The position numbers were made by a program, and so were the translations under genes. A stretch of 36,127 nt of DNA from Candidatus Kuenenia stuttgartensis (GTDB lineage: Bacteria > Planctomycetota > Phycisphaerae > Phycisphaerales > SM1A02), in the NCBI GenBank assembly GCA_945870915.1, contig CAMBUI010000004.1:1-36127 (forward strand), given 5' to 3'. Each line of letters starts with the position of its first letter. The first letter of the stretch is position 1. Below are positions 912 through 21,213 of the stretch, piece after piece. A model generated the notes under the pieces. The model searched no databases, was not told the origin of the DNA, and worked only from the letters and a program-made list of their open reading frames with translations.

Positions 912-3170
912 ATGACCCGCCCGATGCGCATTTTCGCGGCGTTTGCCGCCCTTCTCGCAGGCTCCTGCGCCGTCGCGCAGACCTACACGCCGCTCAAGGA
1001 GATCCCCGGCAACGAGCTCATGCGCCGCATGGAGAGCGCCATGGGCGGCATCGGCGACGGCGGCGACATCGGCGACGCGAAGTGGGACCTCGCCACCGGC
1101 ACGCTCTGGTTCGAGAAGGACGGCTGGCGCACCCTCGACCTCGCCACCGGCGCGATCGAGCGCCGCGATGGCAACCCGCCCGAGTCGGCCGTACCGTCGC
1201 GCGCGCAGCGCGAGGGCCGCGAGCGCCGCCCCGCGCGCGGCCGGCAGTTCACCACCGCCGAGAGTCCCGACGGCGCCTGGACCGCGGTGAGCGAGAACGG
1301 CAACCTGTTCCTCCGGCCGCGCAAGGCCGGGATCGACGGCGCGGGCGCGGACGTGGGTGCAGGCAAGCCCGCGGCTGAGGTTGCGGGCAACCCCGCGGGT
1401 GAGGTCGCCGTCACCACCGACGGCACCGCCGACATCAAGTACGGACAGGCCTCGTGGGTCTACGGCGAGGAACTCGACCAGACCACCGCGATGTGGTGGA
1501 GCCCCGACTCGCGCTTCATCGCGTTCTACCGCTTCGACGAGTCGCAGGTGAAGGACTTCTTCATCCTCGGCGGCTGGACCGAGGTCAACACGCGGGTGCT
1601 CAGCGAGGCCTATCCCAAGCCCGGCCAGCCGAACCCGACCGCGTCGCTCATGGTCCACGAGGTCGCGACCGGCCGCACGGTCGCGGTCGACAGCTTCAGC
1701 GAGAAGTCGGGCGCCGTCCCCGGCACCGAGTACTACCTCTACAACGTGCGGTGGACGCCCGACGGCGGCGAGCTGCTCTACTCGCGCACGCCGCGGCGGC
1801 AGGATGTCCTCGACGTGCTCGCCGCCGATCCCGCCACCGGCGCCTCGCGGCTCGTGGTGCAGGAGCGCCAGGACACCTGGCAGGACAACGCCCCCGGCAT
1901 GCGCTTCCTCAAGGACGGAACGCGCTTCATCTGGGAGACCGAGAAGACCGGATTCCGCCACTACGAGCTGCGCTCGCTCGACGGGTCGCTGATCTCCACC
2001 ATCTCGCGCGGCGCGTGGCCGGTCGAGCGGATCGTGCTCGTCGACGAGGAGGCCGGCCAGCTGTGGTTCACCGCGTGGAGCGGCAAGGTCGCGGTCCAGC
2101 AGCAGCTCCATGTCGCGCGGCTCGACGGCGGCGCCTGCGCGCGCGTGACCGGCGGCGACCTCCACCACGGCGGATTCCGCATCTCGCCCGACGGCTCGTT
2201 CGTGGTCGCGACCGCGCAGTCGACCCAGGTTCCGCCGCGCACCGTCGTCTACGCGGCCGACGGCCGGCTCCTCGCCACGCTCGCCGAGGGCGACGCGAAG
2301 GGCTTCGGGGTCCACGGCCTCGCGCCGACCGAGCTCTTCACCTGCAAGGCCGCCGACGGCGTCACCGACCTCTACGGCAAGATCCGCTTCCCGCCCGCAT
2401 TCGACCCGGCCCGCAGGTACCCCGTGGTGGTCGACATCTACGGCGGCCCCACGGTCCGCCTCGTGACCGACACCTTCGAGGCGGGCGACCAGCGCACCGC
2501 GCTCGGCTTCATCCTCGTCACCGTCGACAACCGCGGCACCCCGGGGCGCGGCAAGGCCTTCGAGGGCGCCGCCTACCTCAGGCTCGGCGTGGTCGACGCC
2601 GACGACCAGGCCGCCGCGGTGCAGCACCTCGCCGCCACGCGCCCGTACATCGACGGCGCGCGCGTGGGCATCACCGGCCACAGCTACGGCGGCTACCTGA
2701 CCGCGATCTCGCTCATCCGCCGCGGCGACGTGTTCGCGGCGGGCGTGGCCGGCGCGCCCCCGACCGACTGGCGACAGTACGACACCATCTACACCGAGCG
2801 CTACATGCGCACCCCGCAGGAGAACGCCGAGGGCTACGACGCGGGCAGCTGCGTCAAGCACGCCGGCAAGCTGCGCGGCAAGCTCATGCTGCTCCACGGC
2901 ATGATGGACGACAACGTGCACCCGAACAACACCTTCGAGCTCGCCCACGCGCTGCAGGCGCTCAACCGCCCGTTCTCGATGATGCTCTTCCCCAACTCCG
3001 ACCACGGCATCCGCAGCCCGTCGGCCGAGAGCGTGAAGTGGTCGTTCTTCGTCGACGCGCTCGCGCCCGCGGTGCCGGAGTGGGGCGGCAAGGCCGAGCG
3101 GAAACCCGAGGGGAAAACCGGGGAAAACACCGACGGGTCGTCCGACACCGCGAAGGAGCAGACTCCATGA
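912..3170 (+). CDS. S9 family peptidase, dipeptidyl-peptidase IV-like, secreted
   Basis: In-frame ATG at 912 followed by signal-like MTRPMRIFAAFAALLAGSCAVAQ; beta-propeller-type N-domain; nucleophile motif GHSYGGY, LLHGMMDDNVH (Asp) and DHGI (His). The longer ORF start at 225 is spurious. Confidence 0.9.
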   Translation: MTRPMRIFAAFAALLAGSCAVAQTYTPLKEIPGNELMRRMESAMGGIGDGGDIGDAKWDLATGTLWFEKDGWRTLDLATGAIERRDGNPPESAVPSRAQREGRERRPARGRQFTTAESPDGAWTAVSENGNLFLRPRKAGIDGAGADVGAGKPAAEVAGNPAGEVAVTTDGTADIKYGQASWVYGEELDQTTAMWWSPDSRFIAFYRFDESQVKDFFILGGWTEVNTRVLSEAYPKPGQPNPTASLMVHEVATGRTVAVDSFSEKSGAVPGTEYYLYNVRWTPDGGELLYSRTPRRQDVLDVLAADPATGASRLVVQERQDTWQDNAPGMRFLKDGTRFIWETEKTGFRHYELRSLDGSLISTISRGAWPVERIVLVDEEAGQLWFTAWSGKVAVQQQLHVARLDGGACARVTGGDLHHGGFRISPDGSFVVATAQSTQVPPRTVVYAADGRLLATLAEGDAKGFGVHGLAPTELFTCKAADGVTDLYGKIRFPPAFDPARRYPVVVDIYGGPTVRLVTDTFEAGDQRTALGFILVTVDNRGTPGRGKAFEGAAYLRLGVVDADDQAAAVQHLAATRPYIDGARVGITGHSYGGYLTAISLIRRGDVFAAGVAGAPPTDWRQYDTIYTERYMRTPQENAEGYDAGSCVKHAGKLRGKLMLLHGMMDDNVHPNNTFELAHALQALNRPFSMMLFPNSDHGIRSPSAESVKWSFFVDALAPAVPEWGGKAERKPEGKTGENTDGSSDTAKEQTP

Positions 3171-12217: not shown

Positions 12218-13150
12218 TCAGAGTGAGGACGCGAAGCGGCCCGCCGCCGTCGATTCCGCGATTCCGGCGATGTTCATGACGCGGAACGCCTGCCCGAGCA
12301 GCGCCGCGATCAGCTCCTCGCGCACGCCGCCGTCGCGCGCGCGAGGCACGAGGAAGTCGCGGTACCGCGCGTCGGCCCCGGCCGGATCGCGCTTCGCGAG
12401 CTCCACGACCTCGGCGAGCAGGGGCAGCTCGTCGTTCATCCGCGCGACGAACGCATCGATGTGCGGCCCGAGCGCGCGCTCGCCGCCGTGCGTGAGCACC
12501 GCGCGGATGCCGCGCGGCAGCGCGCGCAGCCGTGCGACCGACTCGCGCCATGCGGGGATGTCGATGTCCGAGGGCGGCACGGGAACCGAGATGTAGTCCG
12601 ATGCCGGCGAGATCATCCCGAGCACGTCGCCCGTGAACACCAGCTCCGCCGCGCGGCCGGCGGCGCCGGCGACCCACGCATGGTGGTGCCGCGCATGTCC
12701 CGGCGTCTCGATCGCCTCGAGTCGCAGGCCCGCGACGTCGACCGTGCCGCCGTGCCCGACCGCGTGCAGCATGTCCGCGGCGATCGGGAGCGGATCGCCG
12801 TAGAAGCGGTCGTAGCGGGGGCCATGCACGGCGCGCGAGCCCGCGATCAGCCGTGCAGGCTCGGCGAGATGCCGCACGCCGCGCGGATGCGCGAACACCG
12901 GCACGCCCTCGCGCGCGAAGTGTCCGGCGGTGCCCGCGTGGTCGAGATGGATGTGCGTGACGAACAGCGCCTTCAGGTCGCGCGGCGCGAGCCCGATCGC
13001 CGCCAGCTGCGCGCGAAGGCCCTCGAACGCGACCGCGCAGCCGCACTCGACGAGCACCGCGCCCTCCGGGCCGCGCACGGCGAAGGCCATCGCGGTGCCC
13101 GGGATTCCCAGGTACATCGTGTCGAGGGGCGTGATGTCGATCGGCGGCAC
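12218..13150 (-). CDS. MBL fold metallo-hydrolase
   Basis: Metal-binding THIHLDHAG, ETPGHARHHHAW, FTGDVLG, LTHGG; probable GTG start. Confidence 0.9.
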   Translation of the reverse strand: MPPIDITPLDTMYLGIPGTAMAFAVRGPEGAVLVECGCAVAFEGLRAQLAAIGLAPRDLKALFVTHIHLDHAGTAGHFAREGVPVFAHPRGVRHLAEPARLIAGSRAVHGPRYDRFYGDPLPIAADMLHAVGHGGTVDVAGLRLEAIETPGHARHHHAWVAGAAGRAAELVFTGDVLGMISPASDYISVPVPPSDIDIPAWRESVARLRALPRGIRAVLTHGGERALGPHIDAFVARMNDELPLLAEVVELAKRDPAGADARYRDFLVPRARDGGVREELIAALLGQAFRVMNIAGIAESTAAGRFASSL

Positions 13151-13197: not shown

Positions 13198-13247
13198 CAA
13201 CCGTTGGCTTTACTTGACGAAAGACAACAGTTGTCTATCCTGAGGCG
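13198..13247 (+). promoter_or_regulatory. Promoter with embedded palindromic operator of the winged-helix regulator gene
   Basis: -35 TTGACG (13214-13219), 16-bp spacer, -10 TATCCT (13236-13241); agacaac-a-gttgtct (13222-13236) fills the spacer; second CAAC-c-GTTG at 13198-13206; ATG at 13248. Confidence 0.7.
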
Positions 13248-13970
13248 ATGCCCCGTCCCGCCATCCACCATGTCGCGCAGCCGAAGCACTGGACGGTCCT
13301 CGTCGCCCCCGTGCGCCTCGAGATCGTCGAGGCGATGCGCATGATCGCGCCCTGCTCGATCGCCGAGATCGCCGCCGCGCTCGACCGGCCGGCCGACACG
13401 CTCTACCGCCACATCGACAAGCTCAGGCGCGCGGGGTTCGTCGTCGAGGCCGGCGTCCGCCGCAGCGGACGGCGCTTCGAGCAGGTGTACGACCTCGTGG
13501 CCGACGATTTCCGCGTCGGCTTCAAGGAGGTCGCGGGCCGCACCGCGAACAAGGCCTACAACGACACCATGCAGTCGATCCTCAAGATCGCGAGCCGCAC
13601 CGCGCGCGATTCGGCGGCGGCGAGCGAGCTCGTGGGCATGGGCGACGAGCGCAACATCATCGGCAAGATCGAGCATGCGTGGCTCACGCAGGAGGAGTTC
13701 CTCGAGCTGCGCGAGATGATGATGCGGGTGAAGCTCTACATGGACGCGCGCAAGGCCCGCCGCGAGGGTCGGCTCTACCTCGCGGCCGTGATCGCGATGC
13801 CGGTCACGCGCAAGCGCGGAGCGAAGCGCAACGGCGTGGACGCGAAGTCCGGCCCGAAGTCCACTCCGAAGTCCGCTCCGAAGTCAGATCCCAAGCCCGC
13901 CGCGAGATCCGCCCCGGGTCCCGACGCCGCAACCGCCAGGAAACCTAGGAGAAAGGCAGGTACGAAGTGA
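13248..13970 (+). CDS. Winged-helix (ArsR-like) transcriptional regulator with basic SxPK-rich C-terminal tail
   Basis: APVRLEIVEAMRMIAPCSIAEIAAALDRPADTLYRHIDKLRRAGFVVEAG; tail KSGPKSTPKSAPKSDPKPAARSAPG. Confidence 0.85.
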   Translation: MPRPAIHHVAQPKHWTVLVAPVRLEIVEAMRMIAPCSIAEIAAALDRPADTLYRHIDKLRRAGFVVEAGVRRSGRRFEQVYDLVADDFRVGFKEVAGRTANKAYNDTMQSILKIASRTARDSAAASELVGMGDERNIIGKIEHAWLTQEEFLELREMMMRVKLYMDARKARREGRLYLAAVIAMPVTRKRGAKRNGVDAKSGPKSTPKSAPKSDPKPAARSAPGPDAATARKPRRKAGTK

Positions 13971-15055
13971 AGGCCCTGATCGCAGCAGCTGTCCTCGGCA
14001 TGGCCGCAGCCGGCGCGTCGCAGGACGCGCTGCCGCAGTGGAGGAAACTCGCGAGCGAGCCCTACAAGGGAAAGCAGGACGACATCTCCTTCGTCACGCC
14101 CGAACTCGGCATCTACGGCAACGGCGCAGGCAAGATCTTCAGGACCACCGACGGCGGCGCGTCGTGGGAGCAGGTCTTCGCCAAGCCCGGGACCTTCGTG
14201 CGCTGCCTCGCGTTCGTGACCGACAAGGTCGCGGTCATGGGCAACATCGGCCCCGGGTACTTCCCCGGCGTGACCGACGCGACGCCGCTCTACCGCACCG
14301 AGGACGGCGGCACGACCTGGAACCCGGTCGCATCGATCGAGGGCGCGCCGGTGGTCGGCCTCTGCGCGTTCGATGTCGTCCAGGTTCCGTTCATCAACGC
14401 GGGCAACCTCGACCATCGGCCGCGCATCGTGGGTGTCGGCCGCGTCGGCGGGCCCACGGCGTTCATCTGGTCCGACGACCTCGGCAAGACCTGGAAGCAG
14501 GGGAGGATTCCCGACCTCGGCGCCATGGCGTTCGATGTGAAGTTCCTCGATGATCGCCGGGGATTCCTCGCGTCGGCCACGCACGCCGATGTCGCGCAGT
14601 CGCACGCGCTCATCCTCGCCACCGAGGACGGCGGCACGACCTGGCGCGAGGTCTACCGGTCGACGCGCCCGTTCGAGACGACATGGAAGTTCAGCTTTCC
14701 AACGCAGGAGGTCGGCTACTGCACCGTGCAGTCCTACAACCCCGATCCATCGGCCTCCCAGCGGTTCGTGGCCAAGACGACCGACGGAGGCAGGACCTGG
14801 GTGGAGATCCCGCTGGTCGACGACCACAAGGTGCGCGAGTTCGGGATCGCGTTCGTCGATGCCGACCGCGGCTGGGTGGGCGCGATGCCGCGTGGATTCG
14901 GTACCACCGACGGCGGAAGGACCTGGACGCCGGCCGACTTCGGGAACGCGGTCAACAAGATCCGCCTCGTGCCGGCGAAGGACGGGGTCGTCGGCTACGC
15001 AATCGGCGTTGAAATCCACAAGCTGGTGTTGCCAAGCAGCGCGCCCGCAAAGTGA
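13967..15055 (+). CDS. Exported Asp-box/BNR repeat (Ycf48-like beta-propeller) protein
   Basis: GTGA overlap with the regulator; about six Asp-box motifs (TTDGGASWE, TEDGGTTWN, SDDLGKTWK, TEDGGTTWR, TTDGGRTWV, TTDGGRTWT); N-terminal signal-like segment. Confidence 0.85.
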   Translation: MKALIAAAVLGMAAAGASQDALPQWRKLASEPYKGKQDDISFVTPELGIYGNGAGKIFRTTDGGASWEQVFAKPGTFVRCLAFVTDKVAVMGNIGPGYFPGVTDATPLYRTEDGGTTWNPVASIEGAPVVGLCAFDVVQVPFINAGNLDHRPRIVGVGRVGGPTAFIWSDDLGKTWKQGRIPDLGAMAFDVKFLDDRRGFLASATHADVAQSHALILATEDGGTTWREVYRSTRPFETTWKFSFPTQEVGYCTVQSYNPDPSASQRFVAKTTDGGRTWVEIPLVDDHKVREFGIAFVDADRGWVGAMPRGFGTTDGGRTWTPADFGNAVNKIRLVPAKDGVVGYAIGVEIHKLVLPSSAPAK

Positions 15056-15077
15056 ACCCCCTCCGCGACCTGATCCC

Positions 15078-15986
15078 ATGAACACCATGAACACGCCGCA
15101 CCGCTCGATTCCGTCGATCTCGACCTTCCGCCGCGCCTCCCGGCGACTGGGCGTCCTGCTGCTGTCGGCCCTGCCCGGACTCGGGCTCGCCGGCTGCATG
15201 GCCGGCGCGTTCAAGGCTGAAACCACGCAGTCCTCGTCCGTCGCGGACGGCAAGTCGCTCTTCGTGAGCGCCGAGAACGGCCGCGTCGAGCTGATCAAGG
15301 ATCCGTCGTCGGCCGAGGTGCGCGTCGAGGCGAAGGTCCGGTGCTCGGGTGCGACGCAGGCCGAGGCCGACGGGCGCCTCGCCCAGTCGAGGCTCGTCGC
15401 CGTGCGCGACGAGGCGGGATGCGTGCGCGTGTCGGTCGAGTTTCCCGCGCGCAGCGGCGTCTCGTGGGGTTGGCCGGACGACTCCGCCAGCATCACGGTG
15501 CGTGCCGCCGACCTCTCGGGCATCGAGGTGGTGACCTCCAACGGAGCGATCGCCAGCGCCGGTTTCTCCGGCCAGGCCACGCTCGTCACCTCGAACGGCC
15601 GCATCTCGGTCGATGGCCACGACGGCCCCGTCACCGCGCGCTCGTCGAACGGCGCGATCGTGGTCTCGGGCGTGCGCTCGCTGTCGGCGCGGACCTCGAA
15701 CGGCCGCATCGAGGCGGCGCTCGCCGAGGGCGCGGCGGGCGACGTCGAGCTCGATTCGTCGAACGGCGCGGTGTCGCTCGTGCTTCCCGCCTCGTGGAGG
15801 GGCGTGGTGACCGCCGAGACGAGCAACGGCTCCATCGACCTGAAGGGCGGCAGCGTCCGCAAGCACGATGGGAGCAAGAGCATGACGGTCGGTGACGCCG
15901 CGGGCGCATCGGCCAAGGCCACGATCGAAACCAGCAACGGCCGCGTGCAGGTGCGCGTGGCCGGCGCGACCGACACCAGGAACTGA
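15078..15986 (+). CDS. DUF4097-like beta-helical lipoprotein
   Basis: Lipobox LGLAGC; seven SNG[ARS][IV] rungs. In-frame ATG at 15078. Confidence 0.8.
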   Translation: MNTMNTPHRSIPSISTFRRASRRLGVLLLSALPGLGLAGCMAGAFKAETTQSSSVADGKSLFVSAENGRVELIKDPSSAEVRVEAKVRCSGATQAEADGRLAQSRLVAVRDEAGCVRVSVEFPARSGVSWGWPDDSASITVRAADLSGIEVVTSNGAIASAGFSGQATLVTSNGRISVDGHDGPVTARSSNGAIVVSGVRSLSARTSNGRIEAALAEGAAGDVELDSSNGAVSLVLPASWRGVVTAETSNGSIDLKGGSVRKHDGSKSMTVGDAAGASAKATIETSNGRVQVRVAGATDTRN

Positions 15987-15996
15987 GCGAATCCGA

Positions 15997-16974
15997 ATGC
16001 AGCACGCACACCTCTCGCATGCCTGCCTCTCCATCAGGGGCCTCGTCAAGATCCATCCCGGCCCGGTCTGCGCGCTGCGCGGCGTCGACCTCGAGATCCC
16101 CGAGGGCATGTTCGGCCTGCTCGGACCGAACGGCGCCGGCAAGTCGACCTTCATGAACATCGTCGCGGGGCTGATCGAGCCGACCGCGGGCAAGGTGCTG
16201 CTCGACGGCACCGATGTCGTCGAGAACCCGCGCTTCATGCGCGAGCGGCTCGGCTACCTGCCGCAGGACTTCGGCTTCTATCCCGACCTCTCGGGCCGCG
16301 CGATGCTGGAGTTCCTGCTCAAGATGAAGGGCGTGACCGGGCCGAAGGGCCGCGGGGCGCTCGCCGACGAGCTCCTCGAGCGCGTGAACCTCACCGGCGC
16401 CGCCAAGCGCAAGGTCGGCGGCTACTCGGGCGGCATGCGCCAGCGCCTCGGGCTCGCGCAGGCGATCGCGGGCAATCCGCGCGTGCTGATCGTCGACGAA
16501 CCGACCGCGGGCCTCGATCCCGAGGAGCGCCAGCGCTTCTACCGCCTGCTCGCCGAGATGAGCGCGGGCCGCGTGGTGCTGCTCTCGACGCACATCGTCG
16601 ACGACGTGTCGACGCTCTGCCCGCGGCTCGCGGTGATCCGCTCGGGCGAGGTGGTGGCCGACACGACGCCGACCGCGGCGCGCAGGGCGGTCGACGGACT
16701 CGTGTTCGAGGGCTTCGTCGCCGACCCCGAGCTGCCCGCGTTCTCGAGGGAGCACCGCGTGATCAGCGCGGTGCTCAACGAGGGCCGCAACAACCGCGTG
16801 CGCGTGTTCTGCGCCAACGGCCGCAGCGCGCCCGCCGGATTCCAGCGCAGCCAGGGCACGCTCGAGGACGCGTACCTCGTGCTCATGCGCTGCCCGCCCG
16901 ACGAGGTGCCGCCCGCGCTGTCGCGCGCGGTGCCGTTGGGCGCGATGCCCGCCGCCATCGGGGGTGCGGCGTGA
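15997..16974 (+). CDS. ABC transporter ATP-binding protein
   Basis: Walker A GPNGAGKST, signature GYSGGMRQRLGLAQAIAG, Walker B VLIVDEPTAGLDPEE. Confidence 0.95.
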   Translation: MQHAHLSHACLSIRGLVKIHPGPVCALRGVDLEIPEGMFGLLGPNGAGKSTFMNIVAGLIEPTAGKVLLDGTDVVENPRFMRERLGYLPQDFGFYPDLSGRAMLEFLLKMKGVTGPKGRGALADELLERVNLTGAAKRKVGGYSGGMRQRLGLAQAIAGNPRVLIVDEPTAGLDPEERQRFYRLLAEMSAGRVVLLSTHIVDDVSTLCPRLAVIRSGEVVADTTPTAARRAVDGLVFEGFVADPELPAFSREHRVISAVLNEGRNNRVRVFCANGRSAPAGFQRSQGTLEDAYLVLMRCPPDEVPPALSRAVPLGAMPAAIGGAA

Positions 16975-19900
16975 TCGCGCGGTTCCTCGCGTTCCCGCTG
17001 CTCGACCTCAGGACCTGCTGGAAGCGCCCGCTCAACATCATCATGCTCGCGGTGTTCGGGTTGATGTCGTTCGGCTTCGTGATGGGTGGCGTGCAGGTGA
17101 GCACGGGCAGCGCCGACACGGGCGGCGCGAAGGTGTCGATCAACTCGGCGTTCAACCTGGCGTTCGCGGATGTGGCGCTGTTCGCGCTGATCCTGCCGTT
17201 CTTCATCGCGGTCGCGTGCGGCATGCCCGTGCTCGGCGACTTCGACCGCCGCATCAACCGGCTGGTCGCCGCGACGCCGATCTCGCATGTCGAGTACGCG
17301 TTCTCGCGCTTCCTCGGGGCGTTCGGCGTGCTCGCCGCGATCCTCGCGCTGTGGCTGCTGCTGCAGGTCGGCTTCTACGAGCTGATCCCGCTCGATCCCG
17401 CCGAGCGCGTGCGCGGAGACTTCAGCGCGTGGAACTACCTGTTCCCGATGCTGCTGTTCGGGCTGCCGCTGGGGCTGTTCGTCGGCGGCATCTCGATGTA
17501 CCTCGGCGTGCGCACGCGGCAGCCCGTGCTGGTGTTCGCGCTGCCGGTGGTGATCGTCGTGTCGGGCATCTTCCTGGTGTGGACCTTCAATCCCGAGTGG
17601 ATGCCGATGTGGGTGAACCGGCTGCTCCAGTGCGTCGATCCCACCGGGTTCCGCTGGTTCGCCCGCACCTTCATCAGCGAGGACCGCGGCGTCGCCTTCT
17701 ACAACACCGCGCCGCTCGCGCCCGACGCGCTGTTCGCCGCGAGCCGCGTGGCGCTGTGCGCGATCGGCCTCGGCGCCGTGTGGGCGACGGGCCGTCGCCT
17801 GGCGCGCACCGAGCACGACGACCTGCGCGTGGGCGAGGTCGAGCGGCTGCTCGCCGAGGCGGGCCGGCTGCACGCGGCGTCGGTGCTCGCCGACCACGCG
17901 GCGATCGCCGCGCGCGGCGGACCGCTTGCCTCGACGACGCGCGCGCCCGGCTTCGTGACCGCGACGGTCGACGTCCTCCGCTACGAGACGCGCGCGCTGC
18001 TGCGCTCGCCCGGCGTGTGGCTGTTCGGACCGCTGATCCTGATCCAGTCGTGGGCGGCGACCAGCTTCCGCCAGGGGCCGCTCGACACCGAGCTCCTCAT
18101 GACGACCGGCGCCGCGGCCGCGGGCGCGTTCGACACGCTCACGCTGCTGCTGTGCTTCCTGATCCTCTTCTACACCGTCGAGAGCCTCGTGCGCGAGGAG
18201 CGGTGCGGCCTGAGCGGGATCTTCCGCGCGTCGCCCGTGCCGACGGCCGCGGTGCTCGCGGGCAAGGTGCTCGCGAACGCGGCGATGGCGCTCTTCATCA
18301 TCGGCTGCGCCGCGCTCGCCATCGCGATGGTGCTGGGCAAGCAGATGTTCGACACGGGCATCGCCGTCGAGCTCGATGTGCCCGTCCTCTTCCTGATCCT
18401 CGGCGTGCTGCTTGCGCCGACGCTGATCGTGTGGGGCGCGTTCGTGTCGTTCCTGTACGCGGTGCTGCGCAACCGCTTCGTCGTGTACGGCGTCGCGCTC
18501 GGCGCGCTCGTCGGCACCGGCTTCGCCACCCAGTTCGGATACATGAACTGGGCGACCAAGTGGCACATGTGGAGCAGCATCCAGTGGAGCGAGCTCGACC
18601 GGCTCGCGTTCATGTGGCCGGCGATCGCGGTGAACCGCCTGCTCGTGCTCTCGCTCGCGGCGTTCTTCATCGTGGCCACGCTGTCGCTGTGGCCGCGGCG
18701 CCTGCCCGACCTGCGCGCGGTGGCCGACAGCATGAGGCCCGCGGCGTTCCTGCGCGCGTCGATCGTGCCCGTCGTGGCGGCGATTCCCGTGGTGGCGCTC
18801 GCGACCTACGCCGGGCTCTCGGTGCGCGGCGGATACGAGGGCGCGCCCGAGCAGGAGGCGCGGAAGGCCTACTGGAAGCGCAACTCGAAGACCTGGGAGG
18901 ATGTGCCCGTTCCCGCGCTCGACAAGGTCGACGGCGAGGTCAGGCTGTATCCCGAGTCGCGCTCGCTCGAGGTTTCGGCGACCTATGTGCTGCGCAATCC
19001 GCACCTCGCGCCGATGGCGGAGGTGCCGATCACGGTCGGCTCGCACTTCACCACCAGCGGCTGGACGGTCGATGGCGTCGCCACCGATCCCGAGAAGAAG
19101 GACCAGCCGCTGCCGTCGATCGAGAACCGCAGCGGACTGCATGTGATCACGCCCGCGCGCCCGCTCGCGCGCAACGGGACCGTCACCGTCACCTTCACGA
19201 TGAAGGGCGAGTTTCCCAAGGGTTGGTCGCGCTCGGGCGGCGGCACGAGCGAGTTCATCCTGCCGTCGGGCGTCGTGCTCACGAGCTTCAGCCCGAGCTT
19301 CCTGCCGGTGGTGGGCTTTGCGGAGGGCGTCGGAATCGACGGTGAGAACAGCCGCGACGCACGCGAGTATCCGGTCGATCACTGGAAGCGGCGCGTCGAT
19401 CCAGCGTTCGGCCCCGCGTGGGCGACGCAGGTTCGGCTCGCGGTCGAGGGACCCGAGGACTGGAAGCTCAATGTCGTCGGCGTCGAGAAGGAGTCGACGG
19501 TCGTCGACGGCCGGCGCCGCACCGTGTGGGAGACCGAGCACCCCGTGCGCTTCTTCAACATCGTCGGCGGACCGCTCGAGGAGAAGACCGGCGAGGCCGC
19601 GACCGTGTACTACTCCGCGCGCACGCCGCACAACGTCGACACGATGGTGAAGGCGCTGTCGGCCGCGCGCAGGAACTACGGCGCGTGGTTCGGACCGTAT
19701 CCGTGGGAGAACCTGCGCGTGACGCAGTTCCCCGGGCTCGCGGGCTATGCGCAGGGGTTCCCGGGCAACATCTCGTTCTCCGAGGGGATCGGCTACATGT
19801 CGCGTCCCGTCGCGAAGGGCGCCGACGGCTACCTCGAGCAGGAGGGCGCGCTCGACGTCGCCTTCTACATCGTGGCGCACGAGTCGGGCCACCAGTGGTG

Positions 19901-20627
19901 GGGCAACATCGTCATGCCCGGCAAGGGCCCGGGCGGCAACATCATCAGCGAGGGCCTCGCCGAGTTCAGCGCGATGATGCTCGTCCACCACGAGCTCGGC
20001 GAGGAGCAGGCGAAGACGCTCCGCCGCCGCTGGGAGAAGGCCTACACCGAGGGCCGCCGCGCCGACAACGAGCGCTCGATCAACCGCACCGACGGGACGC
20101 GGCCGGGCGACACGGTCGTGACCTACAACCGCGCGGGGCTCGTGTTCTGGATGCTGCGCGACCTGATGGGCGAGGAGCAGATGCTCGCCGGCCTGAAGTC
20201 GTTCGTCGCGAAGTGGAAGAACGGCGTCGAGACCCCCGAAGGGCTCGATTTTCCGCTCATCGAGGACATGGTCGAGAGCCTGCGGCCGTTCGCGCCCGAC
20301 GAGGTGGCCTTCGGCCTCTTCGTCGACCAGTGGATCTACGGCACCACGCTGCCCGAGCTCGACATCGCCGATGCGGAGGCCGACGACGCCGATGGCGCGT
20401 TCACGACCACCGCGGAGCTTCGCAACACGGGCAAGGGCACGGTGGATGTGACCGTGCGCGCGCTGGGCGAGAACGCGACGCAGTTCGAGGACACGGTCGT
20501 GCGCGTGGCCGCGGGCGGCAGCGTGCCGGTCGTGATTCAGTCGGCGTTCAAGCCCGCGAAGCTGGTGGTCGACCCCGAGGTCAGGCTTCTGTTCGCGGGT
20601 CGGAAGCGCTGCGAGAAGTCGCTTTGA
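16971..20627 (+). CDS. ABC-2 type permease fused to an M1-family metallopeptidase domain
   Basis: GTGA overlap with the ATPase; two blocks of hydrophobic segments in the N-terminal half, then VAHESGHQWWGN, ISEGLAEF and YNRAGLVFWML. Confidence 0.9.
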   Translation: MIARFLAFPLLDLRTCWKRPLNIIMLAVFGLMSFGFVMGGVQVSTGSADTGGAKVSINSAFNLAFADVALFALILPFFIAVACGMPVLGDFDRRINRLVAATPISHVEYAFSRFLGAFGVLAAILALWLLLQVGFYELIPLDPAERVRGDFSAWNYLFPMLLFGLPLGLFVGGISMYLGVRTRQPVLVFALPVVIVVSGIFLVWTFNPEWMPMWVNRLLQCVDPTGFRWFARTFISEDRGVAFYNTAPLAPDALFAASRVALCAIGLGAVWATGRRLARTEHDDLRVGEVERLLAEAGRLHAASVLADHAAIAARGGPLASTTRAPGFVTATVDVLRYETRALLRSPGVWLFGPLILIQSWAATSFRQGPLDTELLMTTGAAAAGAFDTLTLLLCFLILFYTVESLVREERCGLSGIFRASPVPTAAVLAGKVLANAAMALFIIGCAALAIAMVLGKQMFDTGIAVELDVPVLFLILGVLLAPTLIVWGAFVSFLYAVLRNRFVVYGVALGALVGTGFATQFGYMNWATKWHMWSSIQWSELDRLAFMWPAIAVNRLLVLSLAAFFIVATLSLWPRRLPDLRAVADSMRPAAFLRASIVPVVAAIPVVALATYAGLSVRGGYEGAPEQEARKAYWKRNSKTWEDVPVPALDKVDGEVRLYPESRSLEVSATYVLRNPHLAPMAEVPITVGSHFTTSGWTVDGVATDPEKKDQPLPSIENRSGLHVITPARPLARNGTVTVTFTMKGEFPKGWSRSGGGTSEFILPSGVVLTSFSPSFLPVVGFAEGVGIDGENSRDAREYPVDHWKRRVDPAFGPAWATQVRLAVEGPEDWKLNVVGVEKESTVVDGRRRTVWETEHPVRFFNIVGGPLEEKTGEAATVYYSARTPHNVDTMVKALSAARRNYGAWFGPYPWENLRVTQFPGLAGYAQGFPGNISFSEGIGYMSRPVAKGADGYLEQEGALDVAFYIVAHESGHQWWGNIVMPGKGPGGNIISEGLAEFSAMMLVHHELGEEQAKTLRRRWEKAYTEGRRADNERSINRTDGTRPGDTVVTYNRAGLVFWMLRDLMGEEQMLAGLKSFVAKWKNGVETPEGLDFPLIEDMVESLRPFAPDEVAFGLFVDQWIYGTTLPELDIADAEADDADGAFTTTAELRNTGKGTVDVTVRALGENATQFEDTVVRVAAGGSVPVVIQSAFKPAKLVVDPEVRLLFAGRKRCEKSL

Positions 20628-21213
20628 GCGCGAGCAGTGCTTCCTCGCAGCCGCGCGGATCAGGGACGCCGTAGAACCCGTGCGCGACCGAGCGCGTGCG
20701 GCCCTTGGCGCCCCGCACCAGCGACGACGCGAAGATCAGGCTGCCCGTCCCGTCGGGGTGGAGCGTCTTGGAGATCCCGTCGAGATCCTGCGCGCTCCAC
20801 GACTGGACCTTGAAGGAGCGGCCGCACGCGACCTGCATCGCGCGCTGGTTGGTCACGCAGCACGCGGTGCGCCGCGCCTTGCGGCCGACCCAGAAGGGTG
20901 ACGAGATCATCGCCACTCCCACCAGCAGGAACGGCAGTCCGAACAGGGGGAACAGCATGAACACGCCGACGGCGACCTTCGAGCCGGCGTCGTCCGACGA
21001 CTGCATGCCGCCGAACCAGGCGCCGGCCGCCGCCATCGTCATCCAGAACGCCGCGAAGCCGCCGAAGAAGAGGCCGAACAGGGCGATTGGCCACATCTTG
21101 CGGCCCATGCGCGACGGCGACGGCATGCCCGCGTACCACAGTTCCTCGCCCTCGCGCAGTTCGTTGCGCACGGCGGCGTCGAGTTCAGGCGTGAGTCCGG
21201 CGAGCGTCGACAT
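20581..21213 (-). CDS. Hypothetical membrane protein, possibly PH-like
   Basis: Two hydrophobic segments (MWPIALFGLFFGGFAAFWMTMAAAGAW; VAVGVFMLFPLFGLPFLLVGVAMI) then VTNQRAM... soluble part; overlaps the M1 fusion 3' end by 47 bp. Confidence 0.65.
   Translation of the reverse strand: MSTLAGLTPELDAAVRNELREGEELWYAGMPSPSRMGRKMWPIALFGLFFGGFAAFWMTMAAAGAWFGGMQSSDDAGSKVAVGVFMLFPLFGLPFLLVGVAMISSPFWVGRKARRTACCVTNQRAMQVACGRSFKVQSWSAQDLDGISKTLHPDGTGSLIFASSLVRGAKGRTRSVAHGFYGVPDPRGCEEALLALKATSRSASDPRTEA

Follow-up and report, generated by a model that had tools for sequence, protein, structure and literature searches.

An ABC ATPase and an ABC-2 permease–M1 peptidase fusion form a constant operon core joined to interchangeable regulators with predicted operators

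Proteins in which an ABC-2 exporter and an M1 peptidase share one chain were catalogued in 2013, with their substrate only guessed at. The example described is Myxococcus xanthus Q1D520, classified as TC 3.A.1.145 (PMC3924187), which has about 1200 amino acids, 13 transmembrane segments in the N-terminal ABC-2 part and a C-terminal zinc M1 domain; the passages of that source devoted to the family describe no regulator, propeller or DUF4097 partner. DUF4097 (toastrack) domains are known from operons that combine a toastrack, an ABC ATPase, a permease, a winged helix-turn-helix regulator of the GntR or RHH type and a DUF2884 lipoprotein, with no mention of an M1 fusion (PMC11237479). They also occur in PadR-DUF1700/HAAS-DUF4097 operons such as the lltR operon of Listeria monocytogenes (PMC6624303, PMC11237479), and both PadR-DUF1700-DUF4097 operons and HAAS-PadR dyads have been linked to the response to drugs and to envelope stress (PMC11237479, PMC6624303). 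The fusion class, the toastrack-ABC operons and the PadR-HAAS-DUF4097 operons have each been published separately. An M1-fusion exporter joined to interchangeable regulator cassettes with operators appears to be new, as we found no report of it in the open-access literature searched; literature queries for the fusion under NCBI-style names returned nothing useful.

The locus described here lies in the window, the whole 36,127-nucleotide stretch of DNA that was analysed, which is contig 4 of a draft genome that is 83% complete. The first-pass annotation had recognized five genes on the + strand, with GTGA overlaps at two junctions and short gaps elsewhere, and all of this was borne out. All five open reading frames have a GC fraction of 0.90-0.96 at the third codon position, which supports coding for each. 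The overlaps are at 13967-13970 (regulator/propeller) and 16971-16974 (ATPase/fusion), while 22 nt separate the propeller and DUF4097 genes and 10 nt the DUF4097 and ATPase genes. The sole sigma-70-like promoter found in 12.8-21.3 kb stands directly 5' of the regulator. The features are as follows:

13202-13229, + strand: predicted operator, CGTTGGCTTT-ACTTGACG-AAAGACAACA, an inverted repeat with an 8-nt spacer
13214-13241, + strand: predicted sigma-70-type promoter, TTGACG-16-TATCCT
13223-13235, + strand: an additional, perfect palindrome, GACAACAGTTGTC, that overlaps the operator's right half
13248-13970, + strand: winged-helix regulator of the ArsR/HTH_20 type, 240 aa
13967-15055, + strand: exported Asp-box beta-propeller with a Ycf48-like fold, 362 aa
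15078-15986, + strand: DUF4097 (toastrack) lipoprotein, 302 aa, lipobox LAGC
15997-16974, + strand: ABC ATPase, 325 aa (PF00005, 106.5 bits)
16971-20627, + strand: permease-M1 fusion, 1218 aa; ABC-2 type, two TMD halves, about 13 TM helices, M1 part predicted to be extracytoplasmic
18915-20336, + strand: M1 domain, residues ~649-1122 of the fusion

The domain labels proposed at first pass hold as well. HTH_20/HTH_5, PSII_BNR and BNR, DUF4097, ABC_tran and Peptidase_M1 all score above Pfam gathering; the permease half falls just below the ABC2_membrane_3 cut-off (28.3 vs 31.6 bits), and in the AlphaFold2 model of the fusion (pLDDT 86.2, pTM 0.82) residues 1-283 and 328-573 form two halves of six helices each. 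A thirteenth TM helix (590-619) is followed by a beta-sandwich and then by a thermolysin-like M1 domain. Since the number of TM helices is odd (6+7), the modelled chain would place the M1 domain on the outer face of the membrane if the N-terminus is inside. With an ABC-2 part of about 13 TM helices and an M1 domain in the same chain, the fusion belongs to a known class, as had been supposed; the likeness to TC 3.A.1.145 is drawn from the published description of Q1D520 (PMC3924187).

Peptidase_M1 (PF01433) is recognized in the last domain at 34.5 bits, and Foldseek matches this domain to M1 peptidases (E=9e-18). The predicted zinc ligands are H970, H974 and E994, with E971 as general base and Tyr1052 as catalytic tyrosine; none of the five varies among 47 sequences, whose identity goes as low as 25%. 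Two hallmarks of M1 aminopeptidases are replaced. The spacing between HESGH and E994 is 19 residues, as in nearly all relatives, rather than the 18 of HExxH-x18-E, and the exopeptidase motif GAMEN (GxMEN) aligns with YAQGF (926-930), which puts Gly929 in the place of the GAMEN glutamate and is kept in most of the fusion family. The label "aminopeptidase" thus lacks support from the motifs, and we refer to the domain as an M1-fold zinc peptidase. With GAMEN replaced, cleavage of peptides by this domain is plausible, not assured.

The same motif bears on a nutrient role, in which M1 would work in the periplasm, trimming peptides from outside before they are taken up, and the function of the ABC part would be import or something unrelated. 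M1 peptidases are commonly engaged in peptide catabolism, which speaks for such a role; the ABC-2 fold, however, is typical of exporters, the operon contains neither a binding protein nor an oligopeptide importer, and GAMEN, the anchor of the substrate N-terminus in aminopeptidases, is replaced. We consider this explanation very improbable. A somewhat better, still improbable, case can be made for a peptide maturation exporter, in which the core would export a self-made peptide (a signal or RiPP-like peptide) and M1 would remove its leader outside, so that the system would mirror the C39-peptidase exporters. It draws on EryP, the M1-fold peptidase of a lanthipeptide pathway according to its PDB title, which is among the best structural matches of the domain (ranks 8 and 14), and on the union of exporter and peptidase in one chain. 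Against it, no RiPP-type synthesis gene was recognized beside the core, and the neighbours of the core differ between lineages.

When 85,000 species genomes were scanned, 76 fusion loci came to light, mostly from Planctomycetota, with other records labelled Acidobacteriota, Eisenbacteria, Gemmatimonadota and Latescibacterota; most relatives that carry a name are metagenome bins of planctomycetes. The fusion is present in 15 of the 16 genomes of the genus, and in 16 of 392 genomes sampled over Planctomycetota (E<=1e-20). In a collection of plasmids, the M1 fusions found were all distant, in part broken, and set among other genes. In every related locus with at least 950 bp upstream (71/71, a few of these loci being one genome reached via two tools) an ATPase homologue lies directly 5' of the fusion, and the 4-nt ATPase/fusion overlap recurs in 53 of 72 gene pairs. 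The constant core of the operon is the ATPase and the fusion only. The first-pass annotation had proposed a coupled export-and-proteolysis module and looked to a conserved neighbourhood in relatives: the coupling of exporter and peptidase stands, with ATPase and fusion kept, but the five-gene set is not fixed. Most relatives have lost the propeller and DUF4097 genes, lack them or retain only decayed forms, and others have a different regulator in its place. The condition named there as a refutation, a neighbourhood that is not conserved, therefore applies to three of the five genes and not to the remaining two. In one bin of the genus (G014; loci L002 = G014:C654 and L144 = G014:C36), the fusion is 96% identical to that of the window while the regulator and metallo-beta-lactamase genes are only 69% and 74% identical, and this mismatch indicates that the bin may be chimeric.

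The regulator has a winged-helix fold (PF12840, 43.1 bits; PF01022, 29.4 bits) and falls short of the ArsR/SmtB metalloregulator model NF033788 (26.2 vs 55 bits). ArsR-like regulator genes of this kind are preceded by an inverted repeat, TGTTGTCTTT-N8-AAAGACAACA, a finding that adds to the first-pass annotation. The search was seeded with locus L073 alone, and 15 other regulator loci were scanned; in 11 of these 15, no other site anywhere in the locus scored as well as the one upstream of the regulator. Its position is always 46-48 nt before the ATG and the spacer length is the same; dinucleotide shuffles seldom reach its score. L045 and L056, the two loci that carry PadR-HAAS as well, lack the site, and in L066 it is weak. 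The predicted operator in the window (13202-13229) agrees with that of L073 at 18 of 20 half-site positions and outscores every other site in the 36 kb. Its own genome contains one exact match to the core pattern, at this operon, other sites differing by 1-2 mismatches. Among the 16 genomes of the genus the pattern has four exact matches, three of them directly before regulator genes, and one of these three (in G014) had no part in defining the operator.

The -35 box TTGACG lies inside the operator spacer, and the perfect palindrome GACAACAGTTGTC has a single match in the window, with 0.03 expected. An inverted repeat that covers the -35 box and accompanies the regulator makes autorepression likely: judged from sequence, the ArsR-like regulator probably represses its own operon through this predicted operator. 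That the site accompanies the regulator gene speaks for the earlier notion of a dedicated regulator. We also considered the site as the control element of the divergent metallo-beta-lactamase gene (12218-13150), and rejected this because elsewhere it stays with the regulator: it is kept next to other upstream neighbours in L059, L060 and L063, and so belongs to the regulator. It may also affect the metallo-beta-lactamase gene.

Front ends were counted in the 54 loci for which 2.4 kb or more of upstream sequence was available, L044 being masked in this count. An ArsR-like regulator is the only one in 13 loci, a PadR and HAAS-Sensor membrane pair (PF03551 and PF22564+PF13796) in 14, both occur in two, and neither was recognized in 25; the totals are 15/54 for the ArsR-like regulator and 16/54 for the pair. 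L067 and L068 carry a more distant divergent regulator. On a FastTree tree, for which the program warned of long branches, no fewer than 14 changes are required to explain the front-end states, with gains and losses counted alike. The two loci with both regulator types and the many with neither led us to reject the idea that the types strictly alternate. The PadR-HAAS front ends have a conserved site of their own, AGTACTGT-N5-ACAGTACT, about 25 nt before the start, which suggests that autorepression may operate there too. In L074, L075 and L078, PadR, HAAS and DUF4097 genes precede the ATPase and fusion, an arrangement like that of the Listeria lltR operon (PMC6624303, PMC11237479); in the operon of the window, by contrast, PadR and HAAS genes are absent and the regulator is ArsR-like, and no such ABC exporter is described for the Listeria operon.

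Some single loci show further variants of the front end. L046 begins with a 50-aa HAAS-Sensor remnant before its ArsR-like regulator, so the reverse order of the two front ends exists as well. In a Thermoanaerobaculia bin (L090:8045-8965), a gene 37 nt before the ATPase resembles TrmB-type regulators by sequence and may represent a third type of front end. L027 (1372-6671, - strand) carries, ahead of PadR and on the opposite strand, four tandem exported-looking paralogues of ~290-380 aa with the motif "...TPGYxNPRDAVxADVL...", and another copy of this family is found in L035/L050.

The remaining two genes are less constant. The five-gene set is complete in the window, in L054 and in L048; L045 has it together with PadR-HAAS, and L044, whose regulator region is masked, possibly has it too. 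Among 20 close loci (at least 60% identity and at least 3 kb upstream), the propeller was matched in nine, two of these as remnants only, and the DUF4097 gene in five, absence in draft bins being weaker evidence than presence. In L049 and L051 just a 54-residue propeller end is left before the ATPase, direct evidence of propeller loss. Since both genes are missing in most relatives, neither is needed for the core function. Two loci (L048:5341-8046 and L055:5249-8380) have the propeller as the C-terminal part of a larger exported protein, after a signal-peptide-like start, a PDZ domain and an S33-type alpha/beta-hydrolase.

The propeller (PF14870, PF02012) shares its Asp-box fold with the photosystem II assembly factors YCF48/HCF136, its best Foldseek and PDB sequence matches, but misses the Ycf48 equivalog cut-off (61 vs 326 bits) and has no photosynthesis context. 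Its AlphaFold2 model (pLDDT 73.5, from a seven-sequence alignment) matches best a YCF48 structure with bound D1 peptide (E=2.1e-9); further down the list is DAIP, solved with a thermolysin fragment. These likenesses suggest, as a lead only, that the propeller may bind a peptide or a peptidase. They also recall membrane quality control, in which the core would pull stray TM fragments, or signal peptides left after cleavage, from the membrane and M1 would degrade them, assisted by the propeller as a Ycf48-like assembly or client-binding factor. The bound D1 peptide in the closest fold and the persistence of the core amid unrelated neighbours, as expected of a housekeeping role, agree with this; its presence in only 16 of the 392 sampled genomes (E<=1e-20) is unusual for housekeeping, however, and dedicated regulators suggest induction on demand. 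We regard it as unlikely, no more probable than the maturation of a self-made peptide.

The DUF4097 protein scores 25.9 bits against a cut-off of 22.9 (PF13349), and a lipobox or its SAAC variant is present in all eight copies with a readable N-terminus. This speaks for a location on the outside in this branch, and consistently lipidated-looking proteins bear on the location of toastracks, which have been argued to be intracellular (PMC11237479); the Listeria DUF4097 protein has been called an exoprotein (PMC6624303). With the PSP/Lia envelope-stress systems the window has the toastrack in common; PspA, PspC, LiaF and LiaRS were not recognized among the window genes scanned with Pfam.

The reading we prefer, at a little under even probability, is that of a derepressible exporter that protects the envelope and carries a peptide-clipping peptidase on its outer face. 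It builds on gene content and order, the conservation of the core and of the operator, the predicted fold, the zinc and tyrosine residues and the lipobox. One fusion chain, providing both TMD halves, would assemble with two copies of the ATPase into an ABC-2 exporter; the thirteenth TM helix would set the zinc peptidase on the outer face, and M1 would clip peptides moved out or extracted from the membrane by the exporter. The ArsR-like regulator, bound to the inverted repeat over the -35 box, would keep the operon repressed until an envelope signal releases it, and in relatives the PadR/HAAS-Sensor pair would take the same job. The lipoprotein and propeller would be optional exported helpers, probably binding peptides or the peptidase. 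We infer the outward direction of transport and the peptide substrate along with this scheme, and the envelope-stress role follows from association with regulators of that type. No PadR, HAAS, PspA or PspC gene was recognized in the window, which counts against the stress role, and the absence of a recognized regulator in about half of the loci counts against a derepressible exporter.

A bolder proposal, which we consider possible though clearly less probable, extends to the whole fusion family. Here the ABC engine would feed membrane-bound or exported peptides to the attached outer-face peptidase, which extracts and clips; the family would have traded the GAMEN anchor for its specific YAQGF and thereby gained another cutting mode, and its production would be wired to the state of the envelope through interchangeable repressor cassettes, either ArsR-like with its operator or PadR/HAAS-Sensor. 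The repeated pairing with envelope-stress-type regulators and defined predicted operators offers a direct handle on the fusion: finding what releases the regulator would give the condition, and perhaps the substrate.

Rfam and tRNA searches of the window gave no match, and PADLOC reported no defence system, only generic wHTH and ATPase matches. An S9 peptidase (prolyl oligopeptidase/DPP IV-type) is encoded at 912-3170 of the window, a position unrelated to the operon. Downstream, a gene for a 210-aa protein without a Pfam match (20581-21213, - strand) converges with the fusion gene and overlaps it by 47 nt (20581-20627); an identical 47-nt convergent overlap with the fusion is found in L042, L046, L056, L066 and L113.
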